Assembly: GCF_004916905.1 (NCBI RefSeq)
Contig: NZ_SDLV01000002.1
Location: 1-64,000 of the forward strand
DNA length: 64,000 bases
Reading direction: 5' to 3'
DNA from: Chryseobacterium candidae
Lineage (GTDB): Bacteria; Bacteroidota; Bacteroidia; Flavobacteriales; Weeksellaceae
Shown here in pieces: positions 13,561 through 60,865 of this stretch. The stretch's first letter is position 1. Every line of letters begins with the position of its first letter. The translations under genes were made by a program, and so were the position numbers. Under the pieces are notes generated by a model, which saw only the letters and a program-made list of their open reading frames with translations, had not been told where the DNA came from and made no database searches.

Positions 13561-13743
13561 ATGAAAAATTTGAAAAAATTATCAAGAACCGGTTTAAAAA
13601 CAATCCAGGGGGGAGTTTTTGTAATATGTACACTCCCTAATGGACAACCTACCAGATGCAGAGATCAATGTCCTCAGGATTTTTGCGGTACAACAAGTTA
13701 TATGTGCCTGATCCCGATGGATCTTTGCGGAGATCAAATGTAA
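13561..13743 (+). CDS. Double-glycine leader peptide with six-cysteine core (bacteriocin-like)
   Basis: 60 residues. The leader MKNLKKLSRTGLKTIQGG ends in Gly-Gly at 17-18. This is the standard cleavage site for C39-peptidase ABC exporters and is common in Chryseobacterium bacteriocin-like proteins. The 42-residue core has six cysteines (23, 33, 37, 42, 49, 56) and few charges, suggesting a disulfide-folded or modified peptide. No dedicated exporter, modification enzyme or immunity gene is adjacent, so export must use machinery elsewhere. It stands alone between ribD and the YigZ gene with its own hairpin terminator. Function is inferred from the leader and composition. Confidence 0.75.
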   Translation: MKNLKKLSRTGLKTIQGGVFVICTLPNGQPTRCRDQCPQDFCGTTSYMCLIPMDLCGDQM

Positions 13744-17280: not shown

Positions 17281-17376
17281 AGTAATTATAAATTTTAAAT
17301 TAAACATTTTAGATGGTGATTTTAAGTTATACCGGTAAGAATTAATTTAAAATCTAAAATTTAAAATCTAAAATCA
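17281..17376. repeat. Heptamer-repeat element between nuoA and nuoB
   Basis: The right arm (17349-17376) is exactly four 7-bp units of form TAAAATY. The left part carries the complementary ATTTTAR theme at roughly 7-bp spacing, giving two inverted arms around a short centre. It ends 8 bp before the nuoB start. Confidence 0.65.
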
Positions 17377-17384
17377 TCTACAAG

Positions 17385-18446: not shown

Positions 18447-18456
18447 AAAATAATGC

Positions 18457-18512
18457 AATAAGCAGTAAGCAGTAAGCATTTAGCTTAAAGCCTATAGCCT
18501 ATCGCCTAAAGC
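18457..18512. repeat. Eight-unit heptamer array between nuoC and nuoD
   Basis: Fifty-six bases divide exactly into eight 7-mers ending in AGC or CGC, for example AGTAAGC (twice), TTAAAGC and CTATAGC. No two-arm structure is visible here. It lies 9 bp before the nuoD start. Confidence 0.75.
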
Positions 18513-18521
18513 ATTTAAATT

Positions 18522-19745: not shown

Positions 19746-19748
19746 CTG

Positions 19749-19830
19749 GAATTATAAATTTTGAATTATAAATTATAAATTGATTTTAGACCATTATTCA
19801 GTTAGAATTTAAAATCTAAAATCTAAAATT
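19749..19830. repeat. Heptamer-repeat element between nuoD and nuoE
   Basis: The left arm (19749-19783) is five 7-mers of GAATTAT/AAATTAT type. The right arm (19810-19830) is three of TAAAATY type, with ATTTTAG between them giving a complementary half. It ends 6 bp before nuoE. Confidence 0.65.
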
Positions 19831-19836
19831 TCAAAA

Positions 19837-20346: not shown

Positions 20347-20350
20347 TAGA

Positions 20351-20445
20351 AATTTTAAATTCTAGGTTTTAGATTTTAAATTATTCACTTAACGTTTAAT
20401 CATAATTAATGCAAAAAGCCCAAAGCTAATTGCAATAAGCAAATA
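20351..20445. repeat. Two heptamer arrays between nuoE and nuoF
   Basis: The first array (20351-20385) has five units of RATTTTA/AATTCTA type. The second (20411-20445) has five units that all begin with GC, such as GCAATAA and GCTAATT. The two consensus sequences differ, so the second array resembles the nuoC-nuoD element rather than the first. Confidence 0.7.
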
Positions 20446-20448
20446 ACA

Positions 20449-22724: not shown

Positions 22725-22728
22725 CAAA

Positions 22729-22763
22729 GCCTATTGCTTAACGCATAAAGCTTAAAGCATATC
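22729..22763. repeat. Five-unit heptamer array before nuoG
   Basis: Five 7-mers starting with GC (GCCTATT, GCTTAAC, GCATAAA, GCTTAAA, GCATATC) fill the gap completely and end 2 bp before the nuoG ATG. They share the GC-first pattern of the arrays before nuoD and nuoF. Confidence 0.75.
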
Positions 22764-22765
22764 AT

Positions 22766-23764
22766 ATGAGCGAAGAAGTTAAAAAATTCAAAATAACTAT
22801 AGACGGACAGACTACTGAAGTTTTGCCTGGTACTTCTATTCTGGAAGCTGCAAGACAAATCGGTGGTAAATCTGTACCTCCTGCAATGTGCTACTACAGC
22901 AAGTTGGAAACCAGTGGAGGAAGATGCAGAACTTGTCTGGTAGAAGTTTCTAAAGGATCTGAAGCAGACCCACGTCCTATGCCAAAATTAGTAGCAAGCT
23001 GCAGAACTAATGTAATGGACGGGATGGAAGTAAAAAATCTTACTTCTGAGAAAGCTCAGGAAGGAAGAAAAGCGGTTACCGAATTCCTTTTGGTAAATCA
23101 CCCGCTGGACTGCCCTATCTGCGACCAGGCAGGAGAATGTCATCTTCAGGACTTAGGATATGAGCATGGTGTGGAAAACACAAGAACAGAATTCGAAAGA
23201 AACACTTACGAAGCTGATGATCTTGGGCCGAACATCAAACTAAATATGAACCGTTGTATTCTTTGCGCAAGATGCGTACTGACAGCCAACCAGCTTACAG
23301 AAACACGAGAACACGGTATCCTTTTCAGAGGAGATCACGCTGAAATTTCAACGTATTTAAATAAAGCTTTAGACAATGACTTCATCGGAAACGTTATTGA
23401 CGTTTGCCCTGTAGGAGCATTAACAGACAGAACAGCCCGTTTTGCAAGCAGAGTCTGGTTTACAAAACCTATGAATGCTACTTGTAAGTGTGATAAATGT
23501 TCCGGAAAAGCTGTAGTCTGGATGAAAGGTGACGAAATTGTAAGAGTTACCGCAAGAAAAGACCAATGGGGAGAAGTGGAAGAATTCATCTGTGATACAT
23601 GTCGTTTTGAAAGAAAAGCTTTATCAGACTGGAACATCGAAGGTCCTAGACATATTGACAGACATTCTGTAATTTCATTGAATCACTACGAAAAGCCAAA
23701 AGATGAGCTAAGAGTTTTAGACAATCCGATGGCTAAAGAAATCAGTGAAAAAGACGAAAAATAG
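22766..23764 (+). CDS. nuoG: NADH-quinone oxidoreductase subunit G, short form
   Basis: 332 residues, against about 700-900 for most NuoG: the molybdopterin-oxidoreductase-like C-terminal domain is absent. Cluster ligands are intact: N1b at Cys42, 54, 57 and 79; N4 at His112 and Cys116, 119, 125; N5 at Cys164, 167, 170 and 214. Two further CxxC pairs (242/245 and 276/279) could bind zinc or a remnant N7-like cluster. The short form appears to be normal in flavobacteria, so this is unlikely to be a truncation. It electrically links NuoEF to NuoI. Confidence 0.93.
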   Translation: MSEEVKKFKITIDGQTTEVLPGTSILEAARQIGGKSVPPAMCYYSKLETSGGRCRTCLVEVSKGSEADPRPMPKLVASCRTNVMDGMEVKNLTSEKAQEGRKAVTEFLLVNHPLDCPICDQAGECHLQDLGYEHGVENTRTEFERNTYEADDLGPNIKLNMNRCILCARCVLTANQLTETREHGILFRGDHAEISTYLNKALDNDFIGNVIDVCPVGALTDRTARFASRVWFTKPMNATCKCDKCSGKAVVWMKGDEIVRVTARKDQWGEVEEFICDTCRFERKALSDWNIEGPRHIDRHSVISLNHYEKPKDELRVLDNPMAKEISEKDEK

Positions 23765-23769
23765 AATAG

Positions 23770-23926
23770 TTGGAAGTTAGGAAGCTGGAAGCTGGGAGTT
23801 TAATAAATCCCCTAAATTTCAGTTTTAATTTTAGCTGTTTTAATAAAATATAAAAAATTTGGTAATGTGATGAAGAGTTGATGCCACGACGTGATAAACT
23901 TCCAGCTTCCAGCTCCCATCTTCAAA
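23770..23926. repeat. Inverted heptamer-arm element between nuoG and nuoH
   Basis: Left arm 23770-23798 has units of CTGGAAG type. Right arm 23899-23926 has units of CTTCCAG type, the reverse complement. Segments 23780-23798 and 23899-23917 pair over 19 bp with two mismatches. The 100-bp centre is AT-rich and unrelated. In RNA this could form a stable long-range stem. Confidence 0.8.
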
Positions 23927-23941
23927 CATTTAAAATAAAAA

Positions 23942-25006
23942 ATGGATTTACTTACATTTAAACTTATACTTGTACTAGCGCTTTTCCTGCTGTCACTTAC
24001 GATTGCAGCCTACTCTACATGGGCAGAAAGAAAAGTTGCCTCTATCATGCAGGATAGAATTGGTCCCAACAGAGCCGGACCTTTCGGATTGCTGCAGCCT
24101 CTTGCTGACGGTGGAAAATTCTTCTTTAAAGAAGACTTTACGCCTGCCAATGCAGAAAAATTCCTTTTCGTATTAGGGCCGGCTTTGGTGATGTTTATTT
24201 CATTGATTACAGGAGCTGTGATTCCTTGGGGTAAAAGTTTAAATATTGCAGGTACTTCTTTTGATCTTCAGGTAGCTAATATTGACGTTGGTGTACTTTT
24301 CATCATCGGTATGGCTTCCATAGGGGTTTACGGAATTATGATCGGAGGTTGGGCTTCGAACAACAAGTATTCATTATTAGGTGCTATCCGTGCTTCTTCT
24401 CAGATGATTTCTTATGAACTGGCAATGGGACTAGCACTTCTTTCAATCATCATGATGGCTGGAAGTTTAGACTTGAAAGAAATTACTGAAAGTCAGACTA
24501 CCGGAAAATTATGGGGCGTTATTCCTTGGGTTTCAGGATTGAACTGGAACATTTTCTACCAGCCGATCGCTTTCCTTGTTTTCTTTGTAGCAGCCTTAGC
24601 TGAAACCAACAGACACCCGTTCGATTTACCTGAGTGTGAATCTGAATTGGTAACAGGATACTCTACAGAATACTCTTCCATGAAGTTAGGTTTATATATG
24701 TTCGGAGAATATGTGAACATGTTTATCTCTAATGCTTTCATGGTCGTTCTTTTCTTCGGAGGGTACAACTATCCTGGTATTGAATGGGTAACTCAGAACT
24801 GGGGAGAAAACACAGCAGGAATTTTAAGTATCGTAGCATTCCTTACGAAAACAGTAATCGGAATTCTGATCTTTATGTGGATCAGATGGACACTTCCAAG
24901 ATTCAGATATGATCAGTTAATGCACTTAGGATGGAAAACTTTAATCCCAATGGCATTGGTAAACCTATTAATTACAGGAGCTGTAATTTTAGCGTTTGGA
25001 AATTAA
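23942..25006 (+). CDS. nuoH: NADH-quinone oxidoreductase subunit H
   Basis: 354 residues with eight or nine membrane helices. It has the NuoH signatures YSTWAERKVASIMQDRIGPN near the N-terminus and ETNRHPFDLPECESELV in the large loop that shapes the quinone channel. Late helices include RWTLPRFRYDQLMHLGWK. It links the redox arm to the proton-pumping arm. The gap to nuoI holds a palindrome and a heptamer array. Confidence 0.97.
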   Translation: MDLLTFKLILVLALFLLSLTIAAYSTWAERKVASIMQDRIGPNRAGPFGLLQPLADGGKFFFKEDFTPANAEKFLFVLGPALVMFISLITGAVIPWGKSLNIAGTSFDLQVANIDVGVLFIIGMASIGVYGIMIGGWASNNKYSLLGAIRASSQMISYELAMGLALLSIIMMAGSLDLKEITESQTTGKLWGVIPWVSGLNWNIFYQPIAFLVFFVAALAETNRHPFDLPECESELVTGYSTEYSSMKLGLYMFGEYVNMFISNAFMVVLFFGGYNYPGIEWVTQNWGENTAGILSIVAFLTKTVIGILIFMWIRWTLPRFRYDQLMHLGWKTLIPMALVNLLITGAVILAFGN

Positions 25007-25013
25007 ATTATCT

Positions 25014-25046
25014 AAACCTAACAGATTTTTGAAACCTGTTAGGTTT
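25014..25046. repeat. Dispersed CCTAACAG palindrome, copy 1
   Basis: AAACCTAACAG (25014-25024) and its complement CCTGTTAGGTTT (25035-25046) flank a 10-bp centre. A nearly identical element lies at 42751-42783, 17.7 kb away. This suggests a repetitive extragenic palindrome family. Confidence 0.75.
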
Positions 25047-25091
25047 GTGTAAATATTGAATATTAAAAATTAAGATAACAGACAAGATTAG

Positions 25092-25126
25092 TCTAAAATC
25101 TGGTGTCTAACATCTAATATCTATAA
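25092..25126. repeat. Five-unit heptamer array before nuoI
   Basis: Five 7-mers all starting TCT (TCTAAAA, TCTGGTG, TCTAACA, TCTAATA, TCTATAA) end 4 bp before the nuoI start codon. Confidence 0.75.
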
Positions 25127-25130
25127 TTAA

Positions 25131-42750: not shown

Positions 42751-42783
42751 AAACCTAACAGATTTTCAAAACCTGCTAGGTTT
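42751..42783. repeat. Dispersed CCTAACAG palindrome, copy 2
   Basis: AAACCTAACAG (42751-42761) and CCTGCTAGGTTT (42772-42783) flank a 10-bp centre. It matches the copy at 25014-25046 almost base for base, including the length of the centre. Confidence 0.75.
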
Positions 42784-50059: not shown

Positions 50060-50060
50060 G

Positions 50061-50137
50061 TTGCAGGCCGCAGGTAATAGGAATTAGATCCTAAACACAA
50101 TCACCTGCCACCTATAATCTACAACCTAAACCCTAAC
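50061..50137. repeat. Inverted heptamer-arm element between the DUF3822 gene and rsmD
   Basis: Left arm 50061-50088 has four 7-mers of CCGCAGG/TAATAGG type. Right arm 50103-50137 has five of ACCTGCC/ACCTAAA type, the complementary theme. The centre is 14 bp. The element ends 8 bp before the rsmD ATG. Confidence 0.75.
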
Positions 50138-50145
50138 AAAAAAAT

Positions 50146-58260: not shown

Positions 58261-58262
58261 AA

Positions 58263-58347
58263 TAGAAGTTAGAAATTAGAGGTTAGAAACGAAATAAACA
58301 TAAAGCTTTTAACTGATAATTCAAAATTCAAAATCATAACTCGTACA
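58263..58347. repeat. Heptamer arrays between ddl and coaD
   Basis: Left array 58263-58290: four 7-mers of TAGAAAT type. Right array 58320-58347: four of TTCAAAA/TCATAAC type. They are separated by 29 bp of other sequence, and the right array ends 2 bp before the coaD start codon. Confidence 0.75.
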
Positions 58348-58349
58348 AC

Positions 58350-58814: not shown

Positions 58815-58821
58815 AAAAATA

Positions 58822-58934
58822 TAATTAATGAGCGATAAATGATAATTGATATAATGGCCAAGAATTTGCTTAAGCAGAAATCATTCATCAATTATCATTC
58901 ATCAATTATCATTTATCAACAATCATTTATAATT
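58822..58934. repeat. Inverted heptamer-arm element between coaD and the TRIC-like gene
   Basis: Left arm 58822-58856 has five 7-mers of TAATTGA type. Right arm 58879-58934 has eight of TATCATT/CATCAAT type, the complementary theme; 56 bp divide exactly by seven. The centre is 22 bp. It ends 4 bp before the next start codon. Confidence 0.8.
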
Positions 58935-58938
58935 ATAT

Positions 58939-60717: not shown

Positions 60718-60735
60718 TATTAAATTTTAAAAGTG

Positions 60736-60743
60736 CAAAGATA
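60736..60743 (-). promoter_or_regulatory. -7 box TATCTTTG for the TPR-like gene
   Basis: Exact TAnnTTTG match on the minus strand, 18 bp before the ATG at 60717. Confidence 0.5.
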
Positions 60744-60770
60744 ATAAATTTAAGGCTTAAAGTTCAAAAA

Positions 60771-60864
60771 GTCAATGGTGAATGGTCAATTCGCTGCGTT
60801 TGTTAATTTTGTAACTGCGGAAAATTCACGATTCCCTTTACTAAGCAAAAATTCATTATTGACC
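60771..60864. repeat. Inverted heptamer-type element between folA and the TPR-like gene
   Basis: Left arm 60771-60791 is three 7-mers GTCAATG, GTGAATG, GTCAATT. The right side carries the complementary AATTCAC at 60823-60829 and ATTCATT ATTGACC at about 60851-60864. The centre is about 30 bp. The arms are less regular than at other sites. Confidence 0.6.
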
Positions 60865-60865
60865 T

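Follow-up and report, generated by a model that had tools for sequence, protein, structure and literature searches.

What fills the gap between nuoG and nuoH

The window (the whole stretch of Chryseobacterium candidae DNA analysed here, 64,000 nt) carries a NuoG-type gene (22766–23764; Pfam Fer4_Nqo3 and NADH-G_4Fe-4S_3) and nuoH (23942–25006; Pfam NADHdh), and the question raised by this locus is what the 177 nt between them represent. The upstream stop codon ends at 23764, the nuoH ATG is at 23942, and the gap (23765–23941) is filled entirely by one element, all of this on the plus strand. Its left, stop-proximal arm (23780–23802, GGAAGCTGGAAGCTGGGAGTTTA) is made of CTGGAAG heptads with G and is preceded by an extra heptad-like unit (AGTTGGAAGTTA, 23768–23779; TRF row 23771–23795). 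Its right, start-proximal arm (23895–23917, TAAACTTCCAGCTTCCAGCTCCC) is made of CTTCCAG heptads with C, and TRF places the heptad array of this arm at 23899–23923; period 7 is found by TRF in both arms. The element therefore has a G-bearing arm at the stop and an inverted, C-bearing arm at the next start, between co-directional genes. No ORF for an IVP (23S rRNA intervening-sequence, or IVS, protein; four-helix bundle, PF05635) was found in the centre (23803–23894). The 3′ part of this spacer (GGTAATGTGATGA.GAGTTGATG) is mostly kept in 15 species of the window's nuoG–nuoH type, and within that type the right arm is the better conserved of the two.

The initial annotation of this DNA had described CTGGAAG and CTTCCAG arms able to pair over 19 bp with two mismatches, and had proposed that the RNA be folded. 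The arms are indeed present and are slightly longer, at 23 nt each with 21/23 positions complementary (91%) and 92 nt between them, and the gap folds to −50 kcal/mol compared with −29.6 for shuffled sequences (z −5.85; 0 of 200 shuffles equal it). A Rho-independent terminator at this position was considered and rejected: no U run comes after the right arm, which leads through ATCTTCAAACATTTAAAATAAAAA into the start of nuoH. An Rfam search of the 64-kb window returned a tRNA and nothing else.

Other heptad elements of the window

Among the neighbouring nuo genes, two-arm heptad elements occupy the nuoA–nuoB (17281–17384), nuoC–nuoD (18447–18521) and nuoD–nuoE (19746–19836) gaps, a heptad element lies in the nuoE–nuoF gap (20347–20448), a short heptad array is found ahead of nuoG (22725–22765), and the gap 3′ of nuoH (25007–25130) contains heptad arrays and a separate local palindrome. 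Two-arm elements are also present at 50060–50145 (GCAGGTAAT/CACCTGCCACCTATAATC) and 58815–58938, and a heptad element at 58261–58349 (GAAGTTAGAAATTAG/AATTCAAAATTCAAAATC); these are all on the plus strand, and a GTCAATGGTGAATGG-type element lies on the minus strand at 60718–60865. We refer to the particular heptads of an element as its dialect. The nuoA–nuoB and nuoD–nuoE elements and the left array of the nuoE–nuoF element share the dialect of IVP element L339 (C2:72427), which belongs to the same genome, and the nuoC–nuoD element has that of the IVP element between groES and groEL (L336); with the element at 58261, those at 17281, 18447 and 19746 match IVP-bearing elements in dialect. The gap orthologous to 58815–58938 elsewhere has an IVP gene between its arms.

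The same two-arm plan had been claimed in the initial annotation for four more sites, and they support it unequally. The fold of 58815–58938 is strong (z −5.0) and that of 50060–50145 moderate (z −2.9); at 17281–17384 the AT-rich arms are clear (inverted score 18) with a fold of only z −1.65, and for the site at 60771 the support is weak (60718–60865, minus strand, z −0.69).

Two other features of the window were seen in passing. A short palindrome of the CCTAACAGATTTTTGAAACCTGTTAGG type is common to the gaps at about 25014–25047 and 42752–42783 and is probably another dispersed repeat. A small cysteine-rich ORF with a double-glycine-like leader (KLSRTGLKTIQGG) lies at about 13561–13743, under the ORF cut-off used; judging by this motif, it is possibly a bacteriocin-like peptide.

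Period, orientation and polarity of the arrays

In a sample of 742,043 of the 4,688,351 bases of the window's genome, with genes called as longest ORFs, period-7 arrays occur in 23 of 249 co-directional gaps, where dinucleotide shuffles predict 3.9; convergent (1/66, 0.5 expected) and divergent gaps (2/65, 1.9 expected) have few. The co-directional gaps also have an excess at period 14 (17/249, 2.6 expected), and periods 6 and 8 give 5 gaps (3.6 expected) and 7 gaps (3.8 expected). In 200 kb from another species of the genus (G002), period-7 arrays occur in 11 of 91 co-directional gaps (0.9 expected), and also in 3/13 divergent (0.5 expected) and 1/14 convergent gaps (0.1 expected), so they are not strictly confined to co-directional gaps. 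One genome from each of three further genera gave 1/84, 3/61 and 1/48 gaps.

The initial annotation would have been refuted by arms that are no more often inverted than direct. For the 22 co-directional heptad gaps of at most 260 nt, the best inverted score averages 10.9 (7.3 when shuffled) and the best direct score 8.8 (7.7 when shuffled); inverted exceeds direct in 13, direct exceeds inverted in 7 and 2 are ties. This 13 to 7 lean is in the predicted direction and is not decisive alone.

Polarity was examined in 41 arrays from 34 of 340 gaps in two genomes, with 10 middle arrays excluded. Among 18 arrays lying in the start-side 40%, C exceeds G in 15 and G exceeds C in one (2 ties), and of 13 in the stop-side 40%, nine have G>C and four C>G (Fisher p 0.001). 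In array-free gaps the stop side is balanced (G>C 141, C>G 135) and the start side leans to C (173 vs 109).

Two variants were noted in these samples. In the C32 sample, the heptad elements of gaps 30512 and 49576 enclose, in a seemingly nested position, a recurring palindrome around GTCAAAAATTCTTTGAATTTTTG whose neighbours are CCATCCTCTGGAGGGG-like. An apparently eight-base-periodic relative (TTTGAAAATTTGATAATGAG...) is present in C2 sample gap 137635, where the two-arm plan is kept, and in the nuoG–nuoH gaps of L081, L090 and L094.

The nuo gaps of 60 species

Across 60 species of the genus, the AB, CD, DE, EF and GH gaps of the nuo genes have medians of 101, 66, 107, 89 and 94 nt. The DE (84–190 nt) and GH (73–179 nt) gaps are occupied in all 60, and the BC and FX gaps are 0–15 nt throughout. 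A single gap can hold several types of insert; the DE gap, for example, has TTATAAATTTTGAATTATAAAT/AATCTAAAATCT, GATGTCAGACATCAGA/ATCTGATGTCTGA, AAGATAAAAGAAGA/TTCTTTGTTCTTTA and GTACAATGTAGC/ACTTTGTACTTTGTAC. A common consensus of the REP/BIME kind was sought among the types without success (RAYT genes were outside the search). By eye, some types are mosaic: the end ATCTTAGATAAAAA is common to two DE types, the right arm of the window's GH type equals that of L073, and L087 combines a CAGA-type left arm with a different right arm. The initial annotation had called the sequences unrelated under one architecture of arm, centre and inverted arm. Several dialects do follow one plan, but relatedness is not wholly absent, in that some types have an arm or end in common.

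The architecture itself is supported at these orthologous gaps. In 26 cluster representatives the duplex of the 5′ half with its own 3′ half averages −16.2 kcal/mol, compared with −8.9 for swapped halves, and the own duplex beats the swapped mean in 24, the exceptions being one DE and one EF gap. It is in the best tenth in only 12 of the 26, and in 8 direct matching outscores inverted matching. The type clusters depend on the threshold, which was identity 0.75 with single linkage for the duplex test and 0.70 with average linkage for the conservation test.

Switching between types is frequent. On a coding tree of 4,635 columns (nuo genes only; 52–60 species per gap), the minimum numbers of type changes are 17 for AB, 28 for CD, 27 for DE, 19 for EF and 28 for GH. 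The window and its second-nearest relative (L071) illustrate this: counted by eye, they are identical at 58 of the 60 nt that precede the GH gap and at 43 of the 45 nt that follow it, but their inserts, 177 nt in the window and 89 nt in L071, are of different dialects. The EF gap exists in occupied and empty versions: in 6 of 58 species (L077, L109, L114, L117, L120 and L125) it is empty, with 12 nt (TTAAAATATACG or near it), and the adjoining 60 nt of nuoE and of nuoF closely match the window, whose EF gap is 102 nt. The AB gap of L125 is 22 nt. No target duplication such as a MITE would leave was recognised by eye between empty and occupied EF sites, and transposases were outside the search.

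Gaps of the same type have mean identities of 81–92% between species with about 85% coding identity, and the flanking 120 nt are no more alike in same-type than in different-type pairs; an ungapped comparison upstream of nuoH was left out, being distorted by indels. In 13 of 20 clusters with at least four distinct sequences, conservation is highest in the start-proximal quartile, with ties in 2. Separately, the first 50 coding nt of nuoB, nuoD, nuoE, nuoF and nuoH are more conserved in the 60 species (0.91–0.997) than the next 100 (0.84–0.98), irrespective of element type.

Pairing in the sense RNA

One possible explanation is that selection acts on RNA structure: the arms in the nuo transcript would form an mRNA hairpin that separates or stabilises cistrons, marks an RNase III site or joins stop and start, with the sequence free to change if pairing holds. 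It is compatible with an element origin. The strong fold of the window's element agrees with it, as do the better pairing of own than of swapped halves and the enrichment in co-directional, hence probably transcribed, gaps. In addition, stem cells are paired in 79.8–93.1% of cases within types and in at most 67.6% when slid, and the alifold structure of alignment A1, which contains the window stem, exceeds shuffles (0/500 for cells paired, 7/500 for covariation score).

However, covariation beyond column shuffles is absent in the A1 window stem (124/500) and in alignments A2 and A3. Selected sense-RNA pairing should also push mismatches to sense G.U over A.C, and no such excess is found in 70 IVP elements (78 G.U vs 110 A.C, a share of 0.415 with 0.453 expected) or in 134 nuo elements (127 vs 209). 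For six of the 10 gaps that were folded, the fold is no better than z −0.7 to −1.7. The variant in which a loop-out joins stop and start was dropped as a main claim, since in 30 gaps the arms span the gap no more than in shuffles (p 0.11). RNA-structure selection is thus backed by the fold of the window element and not by the A1–A3 pair counts or the G.U test, and its evolutionary signatures are at best weak. Because the covariation and G.U tests lack a clear signal, we take the arms to be sites or ends in inverted orientation, of which the RNA stem may be a consequence, and we consider a selected hairpin an unlikely account of these inserts.

IVP genes between heptad arms

IVP was found in 40/40 genomes of the genus, 25/31 of the family and 45/61 of the phylum, and in 0/14 control genomes. 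Our own IVP profile was made from 23 motif-picked proteins. Two solved structures of the IVP type, 2gsc and 2rld, match in sequence. PF05635 is matched eight times in the window's genome, including once between groES and groEL.

The flanks of IVP genes have the same anatomy as the short inserts. We analysed 84 IVP loci of the genus, which are the best-scoring among the matches listed and not a random draw. Both neighbours are on the IVP strand in 78 of the 84, and the flanks reach an inverted score of at least 14 in 62 and a direct score of that size in one (shuffle mean 9.4), which settles the question of inverted over direct arms left undecided by the gap sample. Seven loci had been chosen since their arms were already seen, and without them 55 of 77 are inverted; the loci are not independent, because many are orthologous. 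Arms with scores of at least 14 have a median length of 30 nt, and the upstream arm has G>C in 60 of 70 and G<C in 3. When the first 37 IVP loci are compared with 85 co-directional control genes, arms are inverted in 21 vs 4 and direct in 0 vs 6, and the four inverted controls include one IVP gene and one nuoE. The family search gave inverted arms at 25 of the 27 loci listed (26 from other genera) and direct arms at 4, with one more locus without an ORF found by the IVP profile; in the phylum search the figures are 18 inverted and 4 direct of the 29 loci listed.

The periodicity is likewise shared. Within 90 nt before or 100 nt after the ORF, period-7 arrays are found at 58 of the 84 IVP loci listed, where shuffling predicts 0.6, and at 8 of the 85 control genes. 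Lags 14 and 21 are present at 46 and 33 of the 84 IVP loci, and lags 4–6, 8–13 and 15 at 0–6 (0.6–1.8 expected).

Long and short forms at the same gap

The groES–groEL gap is bimodal in length. Among 59 species, 28 have 80–119 nt here and 30 have 446–507 nt, with a single species at 265 nt, and the median difference between long and short gaps, 376 nt, is about the length of an IVP ORF. Of the 39 genomes that were also searched for IVP, 19 have a groES–groEL IVP among the matches listed, all in long gaps (447–507 nt), and the other 20, with gaps of 88–117 or 265 nt, have none among the matches listed. IVP presence was assigned by eye between two lists, and the IVP search did not extend to the 11 long gaps of the remaining 20 genomes. 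The window's genome is one with an IVP gene in this gap (L336:1176–1902; G000 C41).

The gap orthologous to 58815–58938 offers a finer series. Among 30 species it holds the short two-arm form in 15, an open IVP frame in 10, a broken IVP in 4 (L325, L329, L330 and L332) and an internally deleted copy with both arms kept in one (L317). The open frames have arms such as ATAAGTAATGAGCAATAAATGATGAA/TTTATTATTCATTGCTCATTACTTAT, and one tested frame matches PF05635 with E 1.4e-14. The IVP genes are under purifying selection, with median dN/dS of 0.044 for 12 groES–groEL genes and 0.089 for 7 of the orthologues in the 58815 gap.

Arm dialect and IVP subfamily

At the groES–groEL gap one dialect goes with one IVP group (L336, L396 and L397) and a second dialect with another (L357–L361, L363, L364, L366, L367, L381, L386 and L392), and dialect therefore follows the protein and not the site. 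IVP pairs at different sites point the same way: arm words are shared (cosine >0.3) in 58 of 124 pairs with 50–70% protein identity, and in 19 of 2,086 pairs below 50%. Over all pairs the rank correlation between IVP identity and arm words is weak (0.11; equalled in 14 of 1,000 permutations). The short elements can be tied to IVP in the same manner, with 28 of 47 short-element dialects matching an IVP arm (cosine at least 0.4) vs 107 of 940 shuffles. That background is 11%, one of the 28 matches (C2:72769) is in fact an IVP element's own arm, and the misses include the gap of the window twice.

The CTGGAAG dialect of the window element has no such partner in the genus, the best cosine with any of 70 IVP arms being 0.13. 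The heptad GGAAGCTGGAAGCTGG is present in 26 of 98 genomes; at 30 genus loci that have it no IVP ORF was found (0/30), a pattern search found an inverted array at only 9, and only 18 lie between co-directional genes. Outside the genus, a heptad of this dialect lies within 62 nt of an IVP gene at 2 of 80 loci among the matches listed. In Gramella sp. AN32 (L150) it is 62 nt from the gene and in the upstream arm only, the downstream arm having no CTTCCAG; in a Flavobacteriales MAG (L189) it is 47 nt away and CTTCCAG units stand on both sides. A search with the IVP profile for relics in the nuo gaps, including the nuoG–nuoH centre, found none, and the same profile also missed the deleted L317 copy. 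The window element thus joins the IVP-associated elements by architecture, polarity and place, and not by dialect, because CTGGAAG matches none of the 70 IVP arms compared.

Exact GGAAGCTGGAAGCTGGAAG arrays (L146–L225) were observed in Halomonas, Stutzerimonas, Halopseudomonas, Zobellella, Chloroflexi and Acidobacteria. In Sporosarcina (L206, about 4742) a long array of a roughly 20-nt unit (AAGTGCTCATAAA...) lies beside heptads.

Arrays of this kind might also arise with no element at all, as neutral satellites: slippage would make 7-nt arrays in gaps that tolerate them, and template switching at quasi-palindromes would supply the inverted second arm. In many bacteria no long simple repeat is commoner than the heptamer (PMC4679880; PMC4692102), GGAAGCT arrays occur in unrelated phyla, and an exact inverted array is present within roughly 400 nt at only 6 of the 80 GGAAGCT loci listed, all of which would suit such an origin. 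It fails, however, to account for the tie of the arrays to one gene family, with lag 7 so far above expectation and controls at the listed IVP loci, or for the very low dN/dS of IVP (0.04). It also does not explain why same-type gaps remain 81–92% identical between species, why the DE and GH gaps are always occupied while BC and FX stay nearly closed, or why dialect appears to track IVP subfamily at independent sites. We find slippage alone quite improbable.

A probable gene-less member of an IVS-like class

We consider it probable, with real room for error, that the nuoG–nuoH insert belongs, as a short form without a gene, to a large class of IVS-like elements, and our results suggest that such elements, known from rRNA genes, also occupy gaps between ordinary genes. 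The full form runs from the upstream stop through an arm of 7-nt units with G, the IVP gene and an inverted C-bearing arm to the next start, and the short form has the identical two-arm layout with a spacer of tens of nt instead of the gene. Both reside mainly in co-directional gaps, alternate at one gap among species and use many heptad dialects. This anatomy and polarity are observed, as are the tie to IVP, the two length classes of gap, the occupied and empty versions of the EF gap, the frequent switching and the purifying selection on IVP. We infer that the short forms may be non-autonomous relatives of the IVP form, and that the arms may be the ends of the element and be read as nucleic acid, perhaps by the Avd-like IVP pentamer. 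Transcribed arms could form a stem that RNase III might cut, an inference by analogy with 23S rRNA IVSs. Movement might be retrohoming-like or might proceed by cassette exchange through recombination in conserved flanks.

That the inserts are merely old trans-species intergenic alleles, which homologous recombination swaps within the conserved ends of genes and behind which stands no mobile element, would fit the limited set of types per gap across the genus with many changes on the coding tree, the mosaic types with a common arm or end, and the 91–99.7% identity in the first 50 nt of the downstream gene as good ground for crossovers, but seems very improbable to us, as it leaves unexplained the occurrence of one dialect at many loci per genome and the IVP gene, and the flanks of same-type pairs are no more alike than those of different-type pairs.

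Our preferred reading, that of a gene-less IVS-like element, can be extended much further, to a hypothesis that we hold only tentatively and that as a whole may well be wrong. IVP elements would then be a general, uncounted class of intercistronic mobile elements in Bacteroidota and perhaps beyond, in which an Avd-like IVP pentamer reads its own 7-nt arm units (dialect following protein subfamily and not site) and maintains or moves gene-bearing and more numerous gene-less forms that swap in operon gaps. The 23S IVS would be the rRNA branch of this class, and the TAACTGA, STRR, GGGAATC and GGAAGCT repeats would be arms of such elements. The question of rRNA IVS function and origin becomes testable in ordinary flavobacteria, in a setting of numerous IVP genes, purifying selection, arm dialects that follow the protein and gene-less versions alternating at groES–groEL, and heptamer repeats that were reported separately are offered a possible common cause.

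Comparison with known systems

REP/BIME elements are palindromic, multi-copy sequences between co-transcribed genes and have a common consensus. The heptad elements resemble them in being palindromic, intercistronic and multi-copy, and differ in having several dialects per gap and a 7-nt period.

Heptamer repeats have been reported in two papers. TAACTGA direct repeats are described in Beggiatoaceae, Cyanobacteria and some Bacteroidetes, with Elizabethkingia among the hosts (PMC4679880). Like the present arrays they are intergenic 7-nt arrays directly upstream of start codons; unlike them, they are one fixed heptamer, nearly always direct, whereas here there are many dialects and a second, inverted arm. 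No link to IVP is described in its main text. The GGGAATC and GGGGA(C/T)T repeats of Xanthomonas and Nostoc (PMC4692102) share with our elements that the same ORFs flank arrays of varying sequence and length, but they are read as G-quadruplex formers, and neither an inverted arm nor IVP is mentioned in what is available of that source.

On the protein side, PF05635 is reported to resemble Avd of diversity-generating retroelements (4DWL and 2GSC were compared), Avd being essential for retrohoming (PMC10053308). A "four helix bundle protein" between two other genes, with flanks of 35 and 33 nt, is reported in F. columnare (PMC5524665). A search of the open literature (titles and abstract openings, with subscription journals not covered) returned no description of IVP genes between heptad arms in operon gaps.

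The nearest relative is the 23S rRNA IVS, as described in Coxiella (PMC4990558). There the complementary ends form a 28-bp stem, tandem GACAGAT heptamers lie ahead of the S23p ORF, the IVS is excised by RNase III and a selfish origin has been proposed; the function and origin of rRNA IVSs are described as unclear and S23p as without known function (PMC4990558). The present elements share with that IVS the inverted ends, the heptamers, an IVP/S23p ORF oriented with the host transcript, the existence of copies whose ORF is damaged, and a sporadic distribution. In contrast to the 23S IVS, which lies in rRNA helices and is cut by RNase III (PMC4990558), they stand between protein genes and have many dialects. 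They also differ in alternating with gene-less short forms and in the strong purifying selection on IVP at the two gaps tested. The nuoG–nuoH element is not inside an rRNA gene and there is no IVP ORF in the window, an ORF that is optional in some known IVSs; it does have the inverted ends (23 nt, 91%) of a 23S IVS and tandem heptamers within those ends.
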